A program made the position numbers and the translations under genes. Below, in pieces: positions 4,465 to 5,260 of a DNA stretch of 64,000 nt. Positions within the stretch are counted from its first letter, which is position 1. Every line of letters starts with the position of its first letter. The DNA comes from Anastrepha obliqua (lineage: Eukaryota > Arthropoda > Insecta > Diptera > Tephritidae): contig NC_072896.1 of the NCBI RefSeq assembly GCF_027943255.1, positions 248,001 through 312,000 of the forward strand, written 5' to 3'. A model generated the notes under the pieces. That model saw only the letters and a program-made list of their open reading frames with translations. It did no database searches and had not been told where the DNA came from.

Positions 4465-5154
4465 TTACTGCAATCTTCGTGTCAATGTTTCGTAGTAGAA
4501 TTGCCAGAATTTGCCGTGGAACCACATGAAAAGAGCGACTATTTGGATAAGGAATGGACGCTGCAGAATTTCTTGTACAGTGCGTCGTTTTAGCTGACGT
4601 ATTAGCAAATGTGTTTTGGACTGGGACTGTTCGTTTAGGTGTTGGTTATAATTCAAGTTGCAATAGTGGTAGTAGTAATTATTGTTGTTGTTATAGTAAT
4701 TATTATTGTAACACAATGTTACATTATCCGCGTTTGCAATATGTTCACCGGCTTCACTTTCCTCGCCGTCACTTCCGTCTTCAGTTTCCACATCTTCTTC
4801 TAATGTTACTTGATTTTCGTGCTGATGTATATGCAGATTTTGTGGATCTAGGGAATTGCTACAATCAGCTGGCTCTTCTTTTCTCGATTCATAAGAGTTT
4901 CTGATGTTGCAACTATTTGGCTGTTGCTGTATTGGCATCTTTTTGCTGCTATTGCTATTGTTATTCCTTGCGTTTGGTGGTTGCTCTATTGGTTGTTGTG
5001 GTTTAGCTTTCTTCTTATTAACATTTTTTTTGCTTCTATTGTTTTTAATATAAGTAGTGTTATTAGTTTGGTTATTGATATTACTGTGGTTATTGTAGTA
5101 ATAAATGGGATACTTATGAATGTTGGTATGGTACTGTTGTGGTTTACGATAATA
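4465..5154 (-). CDS. Ggamma30A: In-frame 229-codon extension after the Ggamma30A stop (candidate stop-codon readthrough or second cistron)
   Basis: Immediately after the Ggamma30A TAA the same frame is open for 229 codons to a stop at 4467-4465. I translated every codon and found no interruption. Order of segments: residues 1-38 rich in Tyr, Asn and His (begins YYRKPQQYHTNIHKYP); 39-72 basic and Asn/Ser-rich; a possible internal start at residue 73 (ATG at 4938, MPIQQQPNSC); an acidic block at about 118-137 (EEDVETEDGSDGEESEAGE); an Asn/Tyr run at about 149-171; and a non-repetitive end at about 183-229 with basic LLIRQLKRRT, then the hydrophobic, aromatic FLIQIVALFMWFHGKFWQF. Readthrough would give one protein of 302 residues and bury the CaaX box. 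Alternatives are an independent 157-residue cistron from the internal ATG, or chance openness helped by the A-rich, T-poor composition (the opposite strand also has open frames). The varied C-terminal third argues for real coding sequence. I recognise no known domain. Confidence 0.65.
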   Translation of the reverse strand, partial: YYRKPQQYHTNIHKYPIYYYNNHSNINNQTNNTTYIKNNRSKKNVNKKKAKPQQPIEQPPNARNNNSNSSKKMPIQQQPNSCNIRNSYESRKEEPADCSNSLDPQNLHIHQHENQVTLEEDVETEDGSDGEESEAGEHIANADNVTLCYNNNYYNNNNNYYYHYCNLNYNQHLNEQSQSKTHLLIRQLKRRTVQEILQRPFLIQIVALFMWFHGKFWQFYYETLTRRLQ

Positions 5155-5260
5155 TTACATAAGAACGCATTTTCCCTTTTCAGCCCACGGATTATTCTTT
5201 TTATCCGGGGCATTTATTAAGGGGTCGTTCTTCTCATTCTCTTCGATAAAAGACCGCATT
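5155..5260 (-). CDS. Ggamma30A: Ggamma30A coding exon 2 (residues 38-72, CaaX box, first stop)
   Basis: The exon begins after a TTTTTAG acceptor (AG at 5262-5261). Its first A completes Glu38, and translation continues [14 protein letters not shown] to a conserved NPWAEKGKC segment and the C-terminal box CVLM, then TAA at 5157-5155. The joined protein is 72 residues, the length I know for the fly visual gamma subunit. NPW corresponds to the NPF/NPW motif that contacts Gbeta. A Met at the last CaaX position predicts farnesylation at Cys69, followed by proteolysis and carboxymethylation, giving membrane attachment in the photoreceptor. As I recall, the Drosophila box is CVIM, so this copy has a conservative Ile to Leu change. 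The reading frame does not end functionally at this stop: see the 229-codon open extension directly downstream. Confidence 0.96.

Follow-up and report, generated by a model that had tools for sequence, protein, structure and literature searches.

The Ggamma30A gene of Anastrepha obliqua, which encodes a visual G-gamma subunit, is followed directly behind its UAA stop codon by 229 further open codons in the same frame. This extension is conserved at the protein level across fly families and is present in a single genomic copy. Comparison of the homologous sequences strongly supports a real, selected protein-coding sequence, and we consider that it is probably translated by stop-codon readthrough (probability of about 0.7). 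The analysis covers a window of 64,000 nucleotides (contig NC_072896.1, positions 248,001 to 312,000), and all coordinates are positions in this window. In junctions, a slash marks the exon boundary. The gene comprises the following elements:

62576..62688, minus strand: first coding exon of Ggamma30A, encoding MDPSALQ...SIA plus the bases GA, with the donor GA/GTGAGT (tblastn, sequence and joined translation)
5155..5260, minus strand: last canonical coding part of Ggamma30A (...GKCVLM and stop), with the C-terminal half of the GGL domain and the CaaX box
5155..5157, minus strand: UAA stop codon in the context AUG UAA U, candidate readthrough site (sequence)
4465..5154, minus strand: in-frame extension, 229 codons and a TAA at 4467-4465 (ORF table and homologues)
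4936..4938, minus strand: earliest in-frame ATG behind the stop (codon 73 of the extension), weighed as a site of reinitiation (sequence)
3952..3957, minus strand: nearest AATAAA 3' of the extension (sequence)

When joined, the exons at 62688-62576 and 5260-5155 translate into the 72-residue Ggamma30A protein. They are separated by an intron of 57 kb, and the acceptor AG at 5262-5261 that precedes the last exon has a tract with 18 pyrimidines out of 20 bases. This exon ends with AAA TGC GTT CTT ATG TAA, which gives the C-terminus CVLM, and the GGL domain found ahead of the stop (PF00631, E 4e-07) together with CVLM identifies the product as a G-gamma subunit. A genome search with the Ggamma protein returned its own pair of exons and, on a different contig, one distant match (E 0.006). 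The 57 kb intron also harbours helix-turn-helix fragments at 48343-48717 (+) and 8813-9163 (+), which look mutually related and match DUF4817 and, below the cut-off, HTH_32, as well as DDE_3 matches at 49260-49622 (-) and 53420-53794 (-, below the cut-off). These pieces are probably transposase remains.

The frame behind the stop begins with TAT TAT CGT and stays open for 229 sense codons, as an earlier note on this DNA had claimed and as both the sequence and the ORF table bear out. That note had regarded the A-rich composition of the extension (42% A, 22% T) as weakening the argument. This objection does not rescue chance, as composition-keeping shuffles never stay open: when the 687 minus-strand bases were shuffled 20,000 times with dinucleotides preserved, no shuffle was open from end to end, and the median first stop was at codon 6. 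Across the extension, the other two frames of the same strand contain 11 and 29 stops. The extension frame is the longest stop-free run of the 64 kb window, the runner-up being a run of 178 codons at 20973-21506 (+), without a Pfam match at E <= 0.01. A chance open frame in A-rich DNA is ruled out by the shuffles and the homologues. A repeat origin is likewise unsupported: at E <= 1, a single site of the 836 Mb genome matches the extension, no Pfam family reaches its cut-off (the best, ArAE_1_C, covers residues 127-171 with 15.6 bits where 22.4 are required), and the region 4400-5300 contains no more than two short tandem repeats. One of these, an 18-base unit repeated 1.9 times at 5061-5095, overlaps a candidate splice acceptor at 5085. 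Between the two stops (5157-5155 and 4467-4465), AATAAA is absent, and the weaker poly(A) variants present there are ATTAAA at 5049, AAGAAA at 5013 and 4574, AATACA at 4933, and AGTAAA at 4469.

With regard to homologues, a search with the single sequence gave three proteins, one of which is the window's own, and a profile built on these three gave five. With a profile from the readthrough model of 302 residues, the number of matches rose to 116, 50 of which were inspected as sequences, and carriers of the extension core were called by motif. The core is present in 30 of the 116 matches: the window's own protein (P0001), 22 sequences assigned to species, and seven other contig sequences. The Drosophila carriers are D. 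immigrans, D. bunnanda, D. pseudotakahashii, D. setifemur, D. ironensis, D. pandora, D. hydei, D. palustris, D. busckii, D. arizonae, D. persimilis, D. novamexicana, D. innubila, D. gunungcola, D. mojavensis, D. navojoa, D. bipectinata, and D. ananassae. Beyond Drosophila, the carriers are Zaprionus bogoriensis, Ceratitis capitata, Lucilia cuprina, and Glossina palpalis. The core motif is absent from the other 86 matches, which include, among those inspected, two Anopheles, a sandfly, two midges, a bee, an ant, a moth, and a crab. On these 116 matches, the tail appears to be confined to higher flies, which is weak evidence of its absence elsewhere, because even the 72-residue proteins of flies usually omit the tail, which appears only in odd gene models. 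No match among the 116 is named as a D. melanogaster extension, which does not show that it is unannotated there; FlyBase may carry a longer Ggamma30A polypeptide. No locus was confirmed among relatives' DNA in viral and bacterial contig collections.

A tree of the core was built from 28 rows, i.e. the window and 27 carriers, with P0001, P0040, and P0091 left out. The rows group broadly by fly family, with 17 drosophilid rows separated from 11 others (support 100/100). Glossina joins Lucilia-like rows (89/39), and the window groups with Ceratitis and further rows (94/93 for the wider group), Ceratitis being the nearest species-assigned row. This topology, for which the program warned of long branches and in which 5 of the 25 inner branches are well supported, is compatible with inheritance of the tail from a higher-fly ancestor and is not proof of it. 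The tail of Ceratitis capitata (P0017) is unusually diverged, with an end branch of 0.91 and a degraded Tyr/Asn block. The Drosophila partial tail models P0019, P0021, P0022, P0024, and P0028 from NCBI bear unrelated names (phospholipase D C-like, VPS36, atg1-like, GATA zinc finger, and DDB_G protein), which were probably drawn from low-complexity similarity.

The alignment and the structural model divide the extension into five parts:

5131..5154, minus strand: post-stop octamer YYRKPQQY, in register with the YYRKPQKY with which Drosophila models start (alignment)
4744..4806, minus strand: acidic block TLEEDVETEDGSDGEESEAGE, which varies between species (alignment)
4648..4707, minus strand: conserved Asn/Tyr block NNNYYNNNNNYYYHYCNLNY (alignment)
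4558..4614, minus strand: conserved basic helix THLLIRQLKRRTVQEILQR, residues 180-198 in the model (alignment and model)
4468..4557, minus strand: conserved hydrophobic C-terminal helix PFLIQIVALFMWFHGKFWQFYYETLTRRLQ, a possible membrane tail anchor (alignment and model)

The linker that leads from the octamer to the core is poorly conserved and varies in length and letters, and the acidic block within it is present in the window and its near relatives. The Tyr/Asn block reads NNNYYYYNYNL[NS]Y in many carriers, and the C-terminal helix follows the pattern KRRT..E[IL]..[RW]P.L........W...KFW in the window and in most drosophilids. Six columns are invariant across 29 sequences (the window and 28 of the 29 other carriers, P0040 being left out). 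AlphaFold predicts a disordered chain save for helices at residues 180-198 and 200-228. The second helix was predicted at high confidence with both the 5-row and the 29-row alignments, and the last three blocks have mean pLDDT values of 93-98.

The most hydrophobic 19-residue segment falls in the C-terminal region in all 30 rows scored. Its Kyte-Doolittle mean ranges from 0.87 to 2.08 over these rows, with 1.24 for the window and 1.38-1.63 for drosophilids, and the octanol transfer sums range from -8.2 to -15.1 kcal/mol. In the drosophilids, a Lys or an Arg mostly lies inside the hydrophobic segment, and at least one basic residue follows the segment. From these values, the predicted helix is a possible, borderline membrane tail anchor, and an interfacial helix is equally possible. 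The search for solved relatives by sequence returned none that was convincing (best E 0.73), and the search by fold, which used the first model, returned no match.

With regard to the route of translation, readthrough is favoured because no AUG precedes the octamer in the window and because splicing around the stop removes the octamer. The partial models of D. arizonae, D. novamexicana, and D. innubila start with YYRKPQKYRN, and the models of D. hydei and D. busckii start one and three residues later, respectively. Thus, five of the 30 models start, by alignment, at the first post-stop codon or at most three residues past it, with the caveat that models with an open frame there are precisely those that annotation would show. 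Counted from that codon, identity to the window is 7/10 in the first three species, 6/9 in D. hydei, and 4/7 in D. busckii. Composition shuffles scored as high as these matches of 7 to 10 residues in none of 200,000 trials for four species and in 25 of 200,000 for D. busckii. In the comparison of D. novamexicana with the window, the octamer is among the three best ungapped octamer regions, the other two being the core helix and the Tyr/Asn block. The other 25 of the 30 proteins show no octamer, as their models begin later or skip it. Judging from this register, the Drosophila partial models probably lie directly behind the Ggamma stop. As the comparison was made at the peptide level only, it would also be consistent with an octamer that is conserved for its RNA sequence and not for its codons.

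Splicing around the stop is the alternative that survives best, and we consider it unlikely. A small intron at the stop (AT/GTAA) or a downstream acceptor would join the Ggamma exons to the extension without any readthrough, and annotated Ggamma fusions that skip the stop indeed make up 11 of the 30 extension proteins. Seven of these fusions leave the Ggamma frame after KC[VI]I, with AT/GTAA as their common exit point, two leave it after KC, one after KKNNP, and in the one from Lucilia exon 1 runs straight into the tail (SIA/D). P0023 of D. persimilis resembles a further fusion and was left uncounted. The window itself contains a candidate intron of this kind:

5084..5158, minus strand: in-frame candidate intron of 75 bases that would remove the stop, TAT/GTAATA ... 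CCACAG/T (sequence)

The acceptor at 5085 is also in the correct phase from exon 1, and its use would give a 243-residue SIA/D fusion, with D after SIA as in Lucilia. Moreover, Ggamma30A is reported to be differentially spliced with age in Drosophila photoreceptors, in an excerpt that leaves the site unstated (PMC6156539). A 2010 table gives one isoform for Ggamma30A in the portion available (PMC2925898), which we count against readthrough. Against splicing, the points of re-entry differ among related drosophilids, as gene finders bypassing a stop would produce, and we read the annotated fusions as the result of gene finders avoiding the stop, although the exit point shared by seven of them speaks against this reading. 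Neither -1 nor +5 of the donor at 5158 in the window is a G, this donor looks weak by inspection, and the acceptor tract at 5085 contains 12 pyrimidines out of 20, vs 18 out of 20 at 5262. An intron that begins at 5166, from the KC/GTT donor on which other gene models draw, would reach the phase-0 AGs of 5135 and 5114 after just 33 and 54 bases, respectively.

The octamer weighs against splicing as well, since spliced forms leave the conserved YYRKPQ[QK]Y untranslated, and five NCBI partial models begin right after the stop rather than via a junction. The AG dinucleotides near the stop in the window are at 5177-5176, 5135-5134, 5114-5113, and 5085-5084, of which 5085-5084 alone has the phase of exon 1 or of the AT/GTAA donor. 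Therefore, any splice to an acceptor that removes the stop also loses seven or more residues from the start of YYRKPQQY.

It is very improbable that reinitiation or internal initiation, whether at an AUG or at a near-AUG codon, yields the tail as a separate protein from the same mRNA. The ATG at 4938 to which the earlier note had pointed is present, as codon 73 of the extension, and it is the first in-frame AUG behind the stop, with none ahead of the octamer. Ceratitis (P0017) and P0007, P0009, P0013, and P0016 have as their first residue a Met whose aligned position is close to the stop, and several melanogaster-group proteins (P0008, P0011, P0012, P0014, P0015, P0030, P0108, and P0110) have a Met just ahead of the Tyr/Asn block (MQHY), which in P0108 and P0110 is the annotated start of a separate protein. 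A restart is therefore conceivable in these lineages. Nevertheless, the starts of P0007, P0009, P0013, and P0016 are machine choices, and the in-frame ATG of the second ORF is not fully conserved: lineages have a Met at differing places, the earliest in the window is codon 73, and QHY stands without the preceding Met in five Drosophila models. The models of D. arizonae, D. novamexicana, D. innubila, D. hydei, and D. busckii contain no Met before the core; therefore, restarting at an AUG could not produce the conserved part in these species. An AUG restart also skips the octamer, which a non-AUG start could translate.

Still less probable is that an ancestral stop gain turned the extension into a relic, i.e. 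former coding sequence whose translation has ceased. The freely varying middle of the extension and the divergence of the Ceratitis sequence would fit a relic; in contrast, the core is kept in drosophilids, Ceratitis, Lucilia, and Glossina, and the frame in the window is free of stops, vs 11 and 29 in the other frames. RNA editing in neurons, with both UAA adenosines converted to inosine so that the stop would read as Trp, has in its favour only that fly neurons edit many mRNAs and is the least credible explanation, as it requires two edits and as nothing pairs with the stop when it is folded with 61 and 107 downstream bases.

Under readthrough, the UAA of higher-fly Ggamma30A would be followed immediately by a further coding segment in the same frame, and a minority of ribosomes would read through this codon to produce a long isoform, of 302 residues here, with an unspecified residue at the stop. 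The CVLM farnesylation box would become internal and thus unusable in this isoform, which would end with the low-complexity linker, the Tyr/Asn block, the basic helix, and the hydrophobic helix, the latter perhaps anchoring in the membrane. G-gamma subunits are prenylated at the cysteine of the C-terminal CaaX box, and membrane attachment of G-beta-gamma via the prenyl group is central to signalling; the farnesylation site of the Drosophila visual subunit has reportedly been the subject of earlier work. Since the long isoform would exchange its CVLM end for a possible anchoring helix, one mRNA could yield both a lipid-anchored and a helix-anchored G-gamma. We tentatively suggest, as a possibility that we rate below even odds, that the leaky UAA provides two anchoring forms: a farnesylated short form, and a long form without a CaaX box, whose hydrophobic tail would hold some G-beta-gamma permanently in the membrane. 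Readthrough translation, membrane insertion, and a role in vision are what we infer from the extension.

If this is correct, the UAA would act as a switch between a lipid anchor and a protein anchor in phototransduction, and an alternative tail that loses the prenyl site and gains a helix would give a sensory cascade that has been studied in depth a second means of anchoring the same subunit. The gene would, in addition, exemplify conserved UAA readthrough. Furthermore, readthrough would account for the conflicting fly annotations, in which the stop is skipped by differing introns or the tail is given as a separate partial protein. Our literature search, which did not extend to supplementary tables of readthrough genes, found, by title or abstract, no publication linking Ggamma30A (or CG3694) to readthrough, and none on fly G-gamma farnesylation, on the exchange of a CaaX box for a tail anchor, or on G-gamma readthrough in phototransduction. 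Ggamma is absent from the available part of PMC4999894.

The earlier note had described the stop as TAA followed by T rather than UGA-C, and the sequence agrees: a favourable context is absent, with neither a UGA nor a following C, which are typical and not defining features of readthrough. No stable RNA structure is predicted in the 61 to 145 bases past the stop (z 0.4 to 1.4). No known RNA element lies near the stop, the sole match at E <= 1 being bxd_7, which is below threshold (20.8 bits vs a gathering score of 60) and sits in the intron at 5577-5635. In the text available from PMC5100048, an all-TAA stop lowers the readthrough score (addend of -2.8), and readthrough of TAA and TAG is lost more easily than that of TGA. 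According to the accessible text of PMC4528330, the annotated readthrough genes in FlyBase number 328, they use all three stops, and UAA cases are found only in Diptera. Regarding the readthrough candidate that the earlier note had proposed, the part that stands is a selected protein extension with relatives in several fly families; the readthrough route is favoured and unproven.

Compared with known systems, the gene shares with the Ggamma30A/Ggamma-e subunits the GGL domain and the CaaX end, which is CVLM here; the commonest CaaX ends among the matches are CVIM, CVLM, and CIIM. Unlike plain Ggamma30A/Ggamma-e, it has an extra C-terminal tail behind the stop, which among the 116 matches is found only in the 30 core carriers. 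Like the conserved readthrough genes of Drosophila and Anopheles (Jungreis 2011, 2016), Ggamma30A is a neuronal gene with a second ORF that starts directly at the stop, is conserved at the protein level, and has a low-complexity middle. In contrast to these genes, its stop is a UAA instead of the usual UGA, no RNA structure was found, and a protein of 72 residues would gain a tail three times its length. The Glass extension, as described in the available part of PMC6655844, also belongs to an eye gene, and across higher Diptera its two ends are conserved while its centre varies. It differs in its UGA-C stop and its tail of 75 residues, whereas the tail of Ggamma30A has 229 residues and ends in a hydrophobic helix; the same text states that the Glass extension is dispensable under laboratory conditions. 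Dunn et al. 2013 predicted transmembrane segments in eight readthrough extensions, and Ggamma30A is not among these eight rows in the portion of PMC3840789 at hand. As in those cases, the extension of Ggamma30A supplies a hydrophobic C-terminal segment. In contrast to them, the base protein of Ggamma30A has a lipid anchor, which the extension would abolish.
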